From contig SDNN01000026.1 in assembly GCA_004524425.1 (NCBI GenBank), positions 1-21,760 of the forward strand: a stretch of DNA of 21,760 nucleotides, in the 5' to 3' direction. Of this stretch, positions 2,927-7,366 are shown piece after piece. Both the position numbers and the translations under genes were made by a program. Source of the stretch: Promethearchaeota archaeon. Lineage in GTDB: Archaea > Asgardarchaeota > Lokiarchaeia > Sigynarchaeales > SOKP01. Positions within the stretch are counted from its first letter, which is position 1. Each line of letters begins with the position of its first letter. Under the pieces are notes generated by a model. The model did no database searches, was not told the DNA's origin, and saw only the letters and a program-made list of their open reading frames with translations.

Positions 2927-4570
2927 TTAATTTCTTTTTAGTTTAGTAAATAACTTTTTCTTCCATGCGATTATTACCATAACGCAACCAGCAACAATAG
3001 AAATTCCGAGCATGACGAGAAGGATCGTGGGATCATCCGGAGGTTTCTTTCCATTACCATTACCGTCATCACCGCCACCGCCACCAATATTGCCATCTGG
3101 AATATAAATTGACCATTGCCTTGTACCCGTTGAATTTATTCTTTGAGCGTAAATGTCGGTATACGGTTCATTTCTACTATCCGTCCAAGTTATTATCGCT
3201 CCTTCAGCACCATCGCTACAGATTTCAGGATCGAATGAATTAATACTCTCTGTGCAAACTACTGCACCATTAGAATCCCATTTTGTTTCTCCAGTGGAAT
3301 TAATTCTTTGAGCATAAATATCTGAAAGGGGATACTCATCAGTTCTAAAATCAGTCCAAGTAATGATCGCACCTCCAGCCCCATCACTGCACATTTCCAA
3401 ATAATTGCGGTGATAACATCCCGTGCAAATGGCTACACCATCAGTATTCCATTCTAAATCTCCAGTAGAATTTATTCTTTGAATAAAAATATCAGAATAG
3501 GGACTTCCCATATTTCTATAATCTATCCAAGTAATGATTGCGCCTTCGTTTCCATCACTACAAATTTTTGGCTCTATTTGTGCTTCAGAATGGCTACATA
3601 TACTTGAGCCATTATCACCCCATAAACATGCTCCAGCAGCATTTATTCTTTGAGCATAGATATCAGAATTATCTCTTTCATCTTTCCATGCTATTATTGC
3701 ACCCCCAGCCCCATCACAGCAGATCTGAAGCTCTTCTTGATTATTACTGGCGTTACAAACTGTAATCCCATCAGGAGTCCATAAAACATTTCCACTGGAG
3801 TCAATTCTTTGCGCATAAATGTCCGATCCAGAGATTCCAGAAGTTCTCTGATCAATCCAAGCAATGACCGCACCTCCTGCATTATCACTACAAATTAATG
3901 GTGTGCTCTGAGAACCAGAATAAGTGCATATGGGAATACCATTAATTTCTGTACCCCACCGAAGAACGCCATTAGAATCAATTCTTTGCGCATAAATATC
4001 CCCATCCGAAGTAGCAATTATTGCTCCTTCAGCACCATCACTGCAGAGTTTATAACTATCTTGAATCGCAAGTCCTATTAACTCACCATTAATTGTCCAT
4101 TTTAATTGTCCTGATCGGTTCACTCGTTGAGCATATTTTCCTGAGCCTATTATATCATCATCTTCCCAATATATAATCGCGCCTCCAGCCTCATCGCTGA
4201 TCATTTGAATACCAAATTGATTTTCATCCTTCTCGGTTATTGATTCTCCATCAGAATTCCATTTAATTCCTCCAGTACCATTAATTTTTTGAGCGTATAT
4301 GTCAAGCTCGCTAACTTCATAATTTCTTTGATCTGACCAAGTGATTATCGCACCTCCATCTCCATCACTGCAGATCCTAGGCCAATTTTGATGTCTTGTA
4401 GCTTTACATATAGGTATGCCACTATGATCTAATAATGAACCTCTTAAGCTGGGATTACTATTCTCATTAGTATCAGTAGCCACAATTGCATTCTTTTCAA
4501 TAAATACTGAACATGTCAGAAGAAAACCTATTAGAATCATAAACAATCTCAATTTAGAATAATTCTTCAC
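2927..4570 (-). CDS. Cell-surface protein of eight propeller-like repeats with C-terminal anchor
   Basis: This 547-residue protein starts with a signal peptide-like segment (basic start, hydrophobic residues about 8-23). Eight repeats of about 47-58 residues follow, from residue 51 to about 490. Each has the pattern CSDGxGGAIITWxDxR, then DIYAQRINSTG, then W, then GxxIC. A glycine/aspartate-rich linker (496-513) leads to a transmembrane helix (about 515-536) and a basic tail KKKLFTKLKRN, so the repeats should face outside. Many NST/NGT sequons and paired cysteines at repeat junctions suit an exported, possibly glycosylated and disulfide-bonded protein. Eight repeats of this size suggest an eight-bladed beta-propeller, which is inference. 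Repeats 2 and 3 are the most degenerate and lack some cysteines. The ligand is unknown. The gene sits alone between two copies of a direct repeat and is divergent from the calmodulin-like gene. Confidence 0.85.
   Translation of the reverse strand: MKNYSKLRLFMILIGFLLTCSVFIEKNAIVATDTNENSNPSLRGSLLDHSGIPICKATRHQNWPRICSDGDGGAIITWSDQRNYEVSELDIYAQKINGTGGIKWNSDGESITEKDENQFGIQMISDEAGGAIIYWEDDDIIGSGKYAQRVNRSGQLKWTINGELIGLAIQDSYKLCSDGAEGAIIATSDGDIYAQRIDSNGVLRWGTEINGIPICTYSGSQSTPLICSDNAGGAVIAWIDQRTSGISGSDIYAQRIDSSGNVLWTPDGITVCNASNNQEELQICCDGAGGAIIAWKDERDNSDIYAQRINAAGACLWGDNGSSICSHSEAQIEPKICSDGNEGAIITWIDYRNMGSPYSDIFIQRINSTGDLEWNTDGVAICTGCYHRNYLEMCSDGAGGAIITWTDFRTDEYPLSDIYAQRINSTGETKWDSNGAVVCTESINSFDPEICSDGAEGAIITWTDSRNEPYTDIYAQRINSTGTRQWSIYIPDGNIGGGGGDDGNGNGKKPPDDPTILLVMLGISIVAGCVMVIIAWKKKLFTKLKRN
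3101..4420 (-). repeat. Eight internal coding repeats, spacing about 141-177 bases
   Basis: The DNA encoding each DIYAQRI motif recurs as a variant of the plus-strand sequence ATTCTTTGAGCATAAATATC near 3139, 3304, 3475, 3646, 3805, 3982, 4123 and 4285. The spacings differ by multiples of three, consistent with in-frame growth by duplication followed by loop length change. The best preserved units are the last three before the membrane anchor. Confidence 0.8.
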
Positions 4571-4826: not shown

Positions 4827-5297
4827 GTGCAAAAAATGCCTTTAGATATTGAAGATAATGAATTACACCAAATAAGAGATGCTTTCAAAACGTTTGATAA
4901 AGATGGAAATTCAAGGATAGAGATAGATGAGTTAGAAAATGTTTATCATGCTCTTGGCAGAGATTTTACACAAGAAGATCTTAAGGAAATGATAAATGCA
5001 GTCGATTTAAACAATGATGGATATATCACTTTTCATGAGTTCTTAAATTTATATAAGAAAAAAGTAATTTTTGATGCTAACGAAGAAAAACTGAGGCAAG
5101 CTTTCAAAATTTGTGATTGTGATGATAATGGATATGTTACCATAGATGAGTTAAGACGCATCATGATAGAAGTGGGAGAAAATCTTACTCATGAGCAGAT
5201 TAAATCAATAGTAAAGGAGGTGGATTTAGACGGTGATGATAAAATAAACTTTGAAGAATTCATAAGACTAATGAAAAATCAGCACTTTAATACATGA
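4827..5297 (+). CDS. Calmodulin-like protein with four EF-hands
   Basis: This 156-residue protein is built almost entirely of two EF-hand pairs. Twelve-residue calcium loops occupy 24-35 (DKDGNSRIEIDE), 60-71 (DLNNDGYITFHE), 97-108 (DCDDNGYVTIDE) and 133-144 (DLDGDDKINFEE). All have Asp/Asn/Asp at loop positions 1, 3 and 5 and Glu at 12, so all four should bind calcium. Loop starts are 36, 37 and 36 residues apart, exactly as in eukaryotic calmodulin. The protein aligns to human calmodulin, recalled from memory, without gaps at about 40% identity. There is no signal peptide, so it is probably cytosolic. The annotated start is GTG at 4827; an in-frame ATG three codons later (4836) is an equally good start. 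The repeat copy just upstream probably carries the promoter. The target protein is unknown. Confidence 0.93.
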   Translation: MQKMPLDIEDNELHQIRDAFKTFDKDGNSRIEIDELENVYHALGRDFTQEDLKEMINAVDLNNDGYITFHEFLNLYKKKVIFDANEEKLRQAFKICDCDDNGYVTIDELRRIMIEVGENLTHEQIKSIVKEVDLDGDDKINFEEFIRLMKNQHFNT

Positions 5298-5335: not shown

Positions 5336-5512
5336 TCATGAGGGAAATTTGGGAGGAGGTGTGAATTTCGGTTTTTTTTCTTCTTTTTTTATGAAATCTT
5401 TTAAATTTCCTCTATGATTACAAGATAAACATTGATAAATTTCGGGAGGAAACCGACTTATGATTTTAGGCTCTTCTTGACTGCCACATTCGGGACATGC
5501 ATAGTCTGGAAT
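5336..5512 (-). CDS. Small zinc-ribbon protein, non-standard or frameshifted start
   Basis: On the minus strand 58 codons read through to the TGA at 5336-5338. The peptide has two CxxC knuckles: YACPECGSQEEPK (Cys6, Cys9) and YQCLSCNHRGN (Cys28, Cys31). This is a classic zinc ribbon of about 35 residues with a lysine- and proline-rich tail. No ATG, GTG or TTG lies in frame. The frame opens at ATT (5512-5510), preceded at eight bases by a strong ribosome-binding sequence GAGGTG (5526-5521). Alternatively a GTG at 5523-5521 would give MVKKIPDYACPEC if one extra A were present in the A6 run just after it, which suggests a homopolymer frameshift. Its 3' end overlaps the T-rich zone after the EF-hand gene. 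The function is unknown; nucleic-acid or protein binding is typical of such ribbons. Confidence 0.6.
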   Translation of the reverse strand: MPDYACPECGSQEEPKIISRFPPEIYQCLSCNHRGNLKDFIKKEEKKPKFTPPPKFPS

Positions 5513-5567
5513 TTTTTAACCACCTCTTTTTAATCAAATTATATCATAACTATTCCAAGAAAATTAC

Positions 5568-5780: not shown

Positions 5781-6353
5781 ATGACTACTCCATCTTCAAA
5801 ATTTGTAAAATCAATGAGACGAGGAGAATTAATCGACAAAGATAATTTTGAAAATTCACTTAAAATAGAAAATTCACCTTTCTTAGGTTGTTTCATTGCT
5901 GATAGAGATGGGAAGACCTTAGTAAAGTTTGAAATTTTTCCAGGAGCCCTTGAGTCCTTTTTAAAAATTGGATGCTCCGAACAAAGAAAAAAGTATTTTG
6001 ATATTGAATTAATCCCCATGTTTATTAGTGCTTTAGAAAAATTTTCGCAAGAAATCAATATCAAGGAATTATCGAAATTCAAGTTAGAAGGCATGAACAT
6101 TAAATTGCACGTCATTTTTGAATTTGATAACTTTTCGATTATATTTTTTCTAAAACCTGAAGTAAATATTAAATTAGTCGAAGAGAAAATTAAAAATTAT
6201 TTCACTTATTTATTCAAGGTGTATAAGGAAGACTTCAATAGTTCTCTGAAAATCTATTCTTTAGCTTTTATTTCTCATTTAGAACTCCTTGGTCAATTAT
6301 GGTTAGAGGAATTAAACGAGACTTATACAAGTTTAATTTCTAAAAAATCATAA
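5781..6353 (+). CDS. Probable longin/roadblock-like domain protein
   Basis: This 190-residue protein has no membrane segment or catalytic motif. The pattern from residue 33 is strand-turn-strand (FLGCFIADRDGKTLVKFEIF), a helix (77-92), two strands (105-125, ending HVIFEFDNFSIIFFLKPE) and a long helix (129-150). It resembles the longin/roadblock-type small alpha/beta folds that are abundant in Asgard archaea, where they are often linked to small GTPases. This is a fold-level guess from pattern. The ATG at 5781 is supported by GGTGA ten bases upstream (5766-5770). The frame stays open for a further 31 codons upstream without a normal start. A TATA-like TTTAAATA lies at 5656-5663, giving a leader of roughly 100 bases. 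The last 30 residues form an amphipathic helix. Confidence 0.75.
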   Translation: MTTPSSKFVKSMRRGELIDKDNFENSLKIENSPFLGCFIADRDGKTLVKFEIFPGALESFLKIGCSEQRKKYFDIELIPMFISALEKFSQEINIKELSKFKLEGMNIKLHVIFEFDNFSIIFFLKPEVNIKLVEEKIKNYFTYLFKVYKEDFNSSLKIYSLAFISHLELLGQLWLEELNETYTSLISKKS

Positions 6354-6451: not shown

Positions 6452-7366
6452 ATGGATGTTAAATTAATGTCTGAATTCATTATTCCTATTTCAAATCAAC
6501 ATGATAATATTTATTTCATAGAAGGAGAGAGAAAAGGAAGATATCCATATTCTAATTCCTTATTAATTGAAGATTATCTCATCGATACAGGAATATCAAG
6601 TAGATATCTTAGAAGATTAAAGAGGCAATTCAAGATTAATAAAGTACTTTTAAGTCATTGGCACGAAGATCATGTTTCGGGCAATAGGTTATTGAAAGAT
6701 GTTGAATTTTCATGTCATTCAAAAGACAAACATATTATAGAAGATATTGAGAAAATGAGTACTTATTACGGTCTTGATAATACCATAGCGAATGACATGT
6801 TAGATCCCATTATTGAGGGTTTTAGAATGGAAAATACTAAAATTAGTAGTCCATTTGAAGGTGGAGATACAATAAGAACTCCTAATTATGAAATAACTGT
6901 AATTCATACTCCAGGTCATACAGCTGGACATTGCTCCTTTTATATAAAAAATTTGAAATTGGCATTTTTAGCGGATATTGATCTTGCTAAATTTATTTAT
7001 TATGGTTGTTTAGATTCAGATTTAATAAAATATGAGATGTCCATTGATAAATTAGCTAATTTAGATATTGAGATTGCTATTTCAGGTCATAAAGGTATTT
7101 TTAGAGGTTCAGAACTGATAAAAAAAGAATTAGGCGAATATAAATCAATATTGAAAAAAAATGATGAGAGAGTGCTTTCTCATCTGCCCGAAAATGAAAT
7201 ATTTAATCCGAATGATCTGATTAGGAAAAATATCATTTATAAGAAGTATAGTGAATGGAAAGACTTTGAAATTATTGGCGAGAGACTCATGATTGAAAAG
7301 CACTTTGAGAAATTTCTCAAGAATGGATTGATAGAAAAACAAGATAACGGATATATATTGAAGTAA
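6452..7366 (+). CDS. Metallo-beta-lactamase-fold hydrolase (GloB/LACTB2-like)
   Basis: This 304-residue protein carries the metal site of the family: HWHEDH (His69, His71, Asp73, His74), His156 in TPGHTAGH, Asp175 in FLADIDL and His213 in SGHKG. All ligands for two metals are present. Residues about 225-304 look like a C-terminal winged-helix-type domain, ending ...FLKNGLIEKQDNGYILK. This is the layout of LACTB2 and related hydrolases, which include glyoxalase II-like thioesterases and endoribonucleases. The substrate cannot be chosen from sequence. Two in-frame ATGs exist, 6452 and 6467; the first gives a leader of about 15 bases after an AAATTTAAG box near 6407. There is no signal peptide, so it is cytosolic. 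It converges on the permease gene with a 27-base gap. Confidence 0.88.
   Translation: MDVKLMSEFIIPISNQHDNIYFIEGERKGRYPYSNSLLIEDYLIDTGISSRYLRRLKRQFKINKVLLSHWHEDHVSGNRLLKDVEFSCHSKDKHIIEDIEKMSTYYGLDNTIANDMLDPIIEGFRMENTKISSPFEGGDTIRTPNYEITVIHTPGHTAGHCSFYIKNLKLAFLADIDLAKFIYYGCLDSDLIKYEMSIDKLANLDIEIAISGHKGIFRGSELIKKELGEYKSILKKNDERVLSHLPENEIFNPNDLIRKNIIYKKYSEWKDFEIIGERLMIEKHFEKFLKNGLIEKQDNGYILK

Follow-up and report, generated by a model that had tools for sequence, protein, structure and literature searches.

A lineage-restricted calmodulin-type four-EF-hand protein in Lokiarchaeia

Introduction

Calmodulin is central to eukaryotic Ca2+ signalling. Do archaea have a protein of this type, and where would it have come from? 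The question is raised by an open reading frame (ORF) at 4827–5297 (+) of a 21,760-nucleotide stretch of DNA from a Promethearchaeota archaeon of the Lokiarchaeia (contig SDNN01000026.1; the whole stretch is called the window below). An earlier inspection of the letters, the sequence-only reading, had described a four-EF-hand protein with the exact geometry of calmodulin, being either a real archaeal homologue or a gene acquired from a eukaryote. We find that the ORF is genuine, that it encodes a protein with four intact EF-hand loops, and that it is a real archaeal gene homologous to calmodulin. This lineage-restricted calmodulin-type protein is genuinely archaeal, and we read it, with a probability of roughly 0.7, as a Ca2+ sensor of the calmodulin/centrin type, free-standing and probably cytosolic, that belongs to a distinct archaeal family in one Lokiarchaeia lineage. 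A search of the open-access literature, with preprints and most subscription papers outside its coverage, found no report of an Asgard calmodulin-like protein among the papers listed; the main text of PMC9433394 does not contain the word calmodulin, and those of PMC12872458, PMC12993045 and PMC12872463 contain none of the terms calmodulin, EF-hand and calcium.

The gene and its four EF-hand loops

Because all 15 aligned homologues begin at the Met equivalent to ATG 4836, this codon is probably the start, rather than GTG 4827, and the protein would then comprise 153 amino acids (4836–5297, +). That Met (M4 in the numbering of the 156-residue product) is invariant in 16 of 16 aligned rows, the 15 homologues and the window protein, and the three extra residues that a GTG 4827 start would give are present in 0 of the 15. 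The start varies in a few other family members, with a longer N-terminus in P0026 and a shorter one in P0035 and P0039.

Alignment with human calmodulin and the family locates the loops at 4896–4931 (DKDGNSRIEIDE), 5004–5039 (DLNNDGYITFHE, highly conserved across the family), 5115–5150 (DCDDNGYVTIDE) and 5223–5258 (DLDGDDKINFEE), all on the + strand. As the sequence-only reading had counted, they begin at residues 24, 60, 97 and 133 in the 156-residue numbering, with spacings of 36, 37 and 36; in the 153-residue numbering the starts are 21, 57, 94 and 130, identical to those of human calmodulin when its first Met is included. Its statement that every loop keeps the calcium-ligand positions also holds, as positions 1, 3, 5, 9 and 12 of all four loops are predicted to be ligand-competent. 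The usual Gly at loop position 6 is replaced by Ser in loop 1 and by Asp in loop 4. Pfam recognizes a pair of EF-hands twice (PF13499, E = 1.6e-36) and the single hand four times (PF00036). When phmmer was run against the PDB, the first match was a calmodulin–calcineurin chimera (best E about 1e-36), and next came the calmodulin chain 2l1w, presumably soybean calmodulin-4, aligned without gaps over residues 10–150 at E = 1.2e-36, far beyond chance. By eye, the window protein has no signal or membrane segment.

An archaeal family behind the gene

Searches among 5.8 billion proteins place the window protein in a block of archaeal-type sequences that stands apart from ordinary calmodulins. Among the best 120 of 765 matches, full-length archaeal-type proteins end at E = 4.6e-45 (P0048) and ordinary calmodulins start at 3.7e-38; the exception between the blocks is P0049 from the alga Tetrabaena, which is named calmodulin, has 225 residues and more than four EF-hands, and is 32% identical (E = 1.6e-44). 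Among the best 120 of 340 matches in a second search, full-length archaeal-type proteins end at 2.8e-51 and calmodulin-type proteins start at 7.1e-40. Named members come from Lokiarchaeota, Promethearchaeota, Hermodarchaeota and an 'archaeon' (P0029, P0012, P0002, P0042); most members are metagenome proteins that are called archaeal by likeness, and the source annotation is merely EF-hand domain or superfamily protein.

For comparison, 32 archaeal-type rows were chosen by the analyst from 45 counted in these searches (window protein and fragments included), plus six loci. All 32 have four loops and 31 keep the 36/37/36 spacing, the linker of P0046 being three residues shorter. Judged against permissive residue sets, 579 of 580 ligand cells are acceptable in the 29 members that align in exact register. 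As a rule, loops 1 and 2 of the family have Gly at position 6, while loops 3 and 4 mostly have another residue there. The gene is under purifying selection: the ratio of nonsynonymous to synonymous rates (dN/dS) is 0.19–0.51 in the four unsaturated pairs of 21, and dS exceeds 1 in the remainder. These values are from NG86; YN00 failed for most of the 21 pairs.

Could the gene have entered the assembly from a eukaryotic contaminant, or resemble an EF-hand gene by chance only? Its close resemblance to calmodulin would suit contamination, and eukaryotic calmodulins may indeed enter metagenome-assembled genomes (MAGs). P0204, labelled 'Chloroflexota bacterium', lies among eukaryotic-type calmodulin rows in the broadest of our trees and is likely a case of this. 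The window gene, however, has archaeal neighbours on both sides, and the same neighbourhood of proS, the gene for an archaeal-type prolyl-tRNA synthetase (ProRS; 1091–2569, +) and the upstream anchor of this conserved synteny, recurs in other assemblies. The GC content at its third codon positions (GC3), 0.242, is inside the range of ten neighbours (0.217–0.307). Relatives occur in six Lokiarchaeota MAGs, three of them directly behind proS (L001, L002 and L005, same strand, 40–41 bases apart), and no protein named as eukaryotic among the best 120 of 765 matches is more than 49% identical. Given the synteny, the composition, the six other MAGs and a syntenic remnant in a related genome, G108 (described below), contamination was rejected, and we regard it, like a chance resemblance, as extremely improbable. 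The sequence-only reading had named a eukaryotic contaminant and a lack of Asgard homologues with this spacing as outcomes to look for; what we see is conserved archaeal synteny with neighbour-like base composition, and Asgard homologues that share 36/37/36.

The family is narrowly distributed. A pattern scan of a genome collection with one genome per species (84,980 species), which detects only sequences bearing two patterns, gave 210 stretches, nine of which encode a relative: the six Lokiarchaeota loci and three weak bacterial ones (24–38% identity). A profile search found full-strength matches in 6 of 227 Asgard-phylum genomes, one copy each, and a weak partial match in G098. PF13499 matches 11 of the 227, above cut-off in nine (the six carriers, G098, G041 and G048), and for Asgard archaea the earlier remark that archaeal EF-hand proteins are uncommon is thus borne out. 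All six carriers lie within one GTDB family of 65 genomes. In a ProRS tree of 32 rows (30 loci of that family, a partial G109 and the window, with 34 family genomes outside the tree), the window, the six carriers and five non-carriers together make up a clade of 12 (100/99). A scan of viral contigs gave 182 pattern matches and no confirmed relative, and viral or mobile carriage was dropped. In G098, L016 2–529 is a different ORF of 175 residues with four EF-hand-like loops, near the contig start and of uncertain source organism.

By ProRS path, the row nearest to the window is G108, whose locus is on a 700-kb contig. The gene order is that of the window: proS, a 190-residue protein, a metallo-beta-lactamase and, beyond one gene that is extra in G108, a permease. 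The profile search gave no family match in G108. Just behind proS and in frame, however, it encodes FKEFIQLMKKQ*FNT*, which matches the window C-terminus FEEFIRLMKNQHFNT*, including the final stop. By tblastn alone this remnant has E = 0.034. With 36 vs. at most 34 (30 for the first 120 bases), its nucleotide match outscores every one of 500 dinucleotide shuffles, and its peptide score is 56 vs. at most 32 in the other nine strand scans (five loci, 42 kb). A profile search of the five non-carriers at E up to 10 found nothing, the short G108 remnant being below its reach, and the G108 case rests on the position and frame of the remnant and on the control scans. Since an in-frame syntenic remnant beats these controls, the common ancestor very probably had the gene behind proS, and G108 has since lost it by deletion.

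Of calmodulin/centrin type, and not calmodulin proper

How close is the window protein to calmodulin itself? The two align without gaps from the first residues at 39% identity over 142 residues of the human protein, which agrees with the ungapped alignment and ~40% identity estimated by hand. Identity is 44% to 2l1w, 35% to centrin-2, 33% to troponin C, 30% to a calcineurin B fragment, 29% to Cdc31 and 28–31% to two CDPK domains. Like calmodulin, the protein has four EF-hands with all ligand positions at 36/37/36 spacing, a long central helix and hydrophobic pocket positions, and both are acidic (net charge −17 vs. −24). The differences are equally plain. Human calmodulin is 59–79% identical to four calmodulin or calmodulin-like rows and only 39% to the window protein. 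Its nine internal Met positions are Met in three of nine cases here, so that a Met-rich pocket was not found. Loops 1 and 4 lack the position-6 Gly of calmodulin, residue 93 is Cys instead of calmodulin's Phe92 in 28 of the 29 archaeal members in register, and the family forms a monophyletic archaeal clade of its own. The EF-hand pairs, the spacing with the helix, and the lobe fold place the window protein in the calmodulin/centrin-type four-EF-hand superfamily; what separates it from calmodulin proper is the scarcity of pocket Met, the low identity and the lack of support for a position within the clade of eukaryotic calmodulins.

The geometry is not calmodulin's alone. Human centrin-2 has the 36/37/36 spacing too (loops at 41, 77, 114 and 150), and the geometry is therefore of calmodulin/centrin type. 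Centrin and Cdc31 have the same overall fold, and their structural score for the archaeal-only model described below is tied with that of calmodulin. Centrins have an N-terminal extension of ~20 residues before the first EF-hand (EF1), which is missing here, the EF1 loop being at 21 as in calmodulin vs. 41 in centrin-2. All four loops of the window protein are intact, whereas in human centrin-2 the last residue is Asp in loop 2 and Asn in loop 3. Calerythrin and sarcoplasmic calcium-binding proteins (SCP) also bind calcium through EF-hands but have inserted segments and longer loop spacing; the window protein instead aligns ungapped with calmodulin. Two EF-hand proteins in G041 (L060 and L071), which by eye have longer stretches between the EF-hands and which we take to resemble the calerythrin/SCP type, were seen in addition to a further PF13499 match in that genome (L072).

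Structure prediction, which had been proposed as a check, gives calmodulin/centrin lobes. The alignment behind the first AlphaFold model held 10 calmodulin-type rows, and the prediction was repeated with rows of the archaeal family only. The lobes were still obtained and their agreement held. The best whole-chain Z was 17.6 in the first model (root-mean-square deviation, rmsd, 2.8) and 15.8 in the archaeal-only model (rmsd 5.7); because Z falls and rmsd rises, the modelled arrangement of the lobes is not secure. The central helix, residues 66–93 (5031–5114, +), is continuous in both models. At the 25 positions that form the target pockets of calmodulin, 25 of 25 residues are hydrophobic in the window protein, and 22 of the 25 positions are hydrophobic in all 29 members.

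A putative Ca2+ sensor

What could such a protein do? Competent loops, conserved pockets, a central helix, acidity and the lack of an operon partner point to a soluble Ca2+ sensor that would act in trans. Ca2+ would occupy the four EF-hand loops, and each lobe would open to bare a hydrophobic pocket. With the long central helix holding them together, the lobes could then clasp a helical stretch in one or several target proteins, and formation of the complex would alter the activity of the target. No conserved functional gene partner was found, as the neighbourhood differs among subgroups. In L003 and L004 the calmodulin-like gene has a NikR-like regulator gene on one side and DUF4139-like genes on the other, and in L006 (10004–10453) it lies inside an apparent trp operon, flanked by what we take to be trpB-like and trpA-like genes.

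Some observations weigh against a sensor. The missing Gly at position 6 (loops 1 and 4 in the window, mostly loops 3 and 4 in the family) may weaken those sites, and Met at only three of nine calmodulin positions may reduce a promiscuous grip on targets. Five relatives in the same ProRS clade have no detected copy (their MAGs are possibly incomplete), and for this reason the role looks dispensable. IQ-motif proteins were found in 0 of 12 genomes, a search that was uninformative since control genomes likewise gave none. Carriers and non-carriers alike have a Ca2+/cation exchanger family (11 of 12 related genomes), which was dropped as a carrier-specific link.

The lack of a conserved gene partner and of a known target, together with several loops without Gly at position 6, would fit a buffer or storage protein that soaks up Ca2+ and has no target. 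A pure buffer would need neither the hydrophobic pockets nor the kept spacing, and we think such a role unlikely. As a putative sensor under selection, the Asgard calmodulin-type protein is a concrete test object for archaeal Ca2+ sensing. PMC9433394 describes Asgard gelsolins (2DGel) of Loki- and Heimdallarchaeota as likewise calcium-controlled regulators, of another fold and with gelsolin-type calcium sites, partly at the actin interface, rather than EF-hands; if Lokiarchaeia also had a soluble Ca2+ sensor, this view of calcium control would broaden.

Origin of the family

Was the gene inherited from an Asgard ancestor or acquired? The trees do not settle this choice, and the distribution, limited to one lineage, favours acquisition. 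An ancient transfer from a eukaryote, or from a stem eukaryote, probably brought the gene into the ancestor of the lineage; inheritance would have followed, with changes of position and occasional loss. If so, a part of eukaryotic signalling has been retained in an Asgard lineage. A bacterial donor is possible; only weak bacterial matches were found.

Three trees were built, and eight approximately unbiased (AU) tests were run on the two wider ones, four each. The second tree omitted seven of 57 rows (G098_L016, P0021, P0022, P0018, P0125, TnC and Cdc31, the last restored in the broadest). The broadest tree holds 18 archaeal-type rows (17 of the chosen set and P0127) and 22 calmodulin-type rows; the latter are partly named eukaryotes (e.g. 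P0051, P0128, P0136, P0145, P0196), and P0052, P0053, P0065, P0096–P0098, P0110, P0111 and others are eukaryotic-type by likeness only. The phylogeny that had been called for gives a monophyletic archaeal family in all three trees (96/82, 96/99, 100/99), not nested in the best trees, and fixes neither an ancestral nor a transferred placement. No tested placement is rejected (p-AU 0.29–0.66). Archaea with calmodulin have p-AU 0.448 in the second tree and 0.659 in the broadest, where the likelihood is above that of the free tree; archaea with centrin have 0.443, with the calmodulin core 0.291, and with divergent calmodulin-like rows 0.368 and 0.375. A calmodulin, centrin and CDPK clade without archaea has 0.414, and calmodulin alone as a clade 0.659.

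Some of this sits poorly with acquisition from a eukaryote. A long stem leads to the archaeal family (0.26, 0.67 and 0.87 changes per site in the three trees), the broadest tree puts the family outside calmodulin and centrin (fork supports 94/67 and 93/65), and no eukaryotic donor group is supported. The gene could instead have descended vertically from the archaeal host of eukaryotes, or passed from archaea to a stem eukaryote, with loss in most Asgard lineages; the archaeal family would then be the outgroup to eukaryotic calmodulin, centrin and CDPK. The monophyly (100/99) and the outside position (94/67) in the broadest tree suit such ancestry, no eukaryotic group stands between the family and ordinary calmodulin among the best 120 of 765 or the best 120 of 340 matches, and the G108 remnant is a very probable case of loss. 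Very many losses would, however, be needed to leave the gene in 6 of 227 Asgard genomes of one GTDB family. The separating branches are not firmly supported (Shimodaira–Hasegawa-like approximate likelihood ratio test, SH-aLRT, 65–67), placing the archaea with calmodulin is not rejected (p-AU values above), and PMC7016017 argues that eukaryotic calmodulin was derived from bacteria. We therefore consider Asgard ancestry improbable. A more specific form, in which the family represents an Asgard remnant of the calmodulin/centrin lineage, older than the eukaryotic calmodulin–centrin duplication, and gives Lokiarchaeia Ca2+/EF-hand signalling, is a little more doubtful still. Were it true, the root of the Ca2+ switch of eukaryotes would lie in archaea instead of bacteria, and EF-hand signalling may act beside the Ca2+-controlled actin regulators of Lokiarchaeia. 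The archaeal family is in any event an outgroup candidate for the calmodulin/centrin family.

Two details of the trees concern single loci. In the first tree, G098 L016 fell into the archaeal clade on a terminal branch of 2.67, which we treat as a long-branch effect. Unlike in the ProRS tree, L001, L002 and L005 are closer to L003 and L004 (90/88) than to the window in the tree of the calmodulin-like gene; the AU test also allows the window clade to group with the L001 clade (p-AU 0.146), and no transfer within the clade is therefore claimed.

Neighbouring genes

Between proS and the calmodulin-like gene lies a repeat protein of 547 residues (2927–4570, −), with a signal-like N-terminus and C-terminal membrane segments by eye. 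It has repeats of the type ICSDGAGGAIITWxDxR...DIYAQRINSTG, for which Pfam gives a marginal DUF4367 match only, and it has no counterpart in the proS-downstream stretches compared from L001, L002, L005 and L048. Downstream, a 190-residue protein (5781–6353, +) and a metallo-beta-lactamase-fold protein (6452–7366, +) follow in the same order as in G108, at 58% and 60% identity, respectively. A short zinc-ribbon protein with two CxxC motifs (IPDYACPECGSQEEPKIISRFPPEIYQCLSCNHRG...) can be read in frame at 5336–5515 (−) of the window, yet ATG, GTG and TTG are all missing from the stretch that runs from the stop before it to the first CPEC. Three zinc-ribbon copies are found behind proS in G108 (L048), each with a Met just ahead of the motif; the window copy is either a degraded gene or one with a rare start codon.
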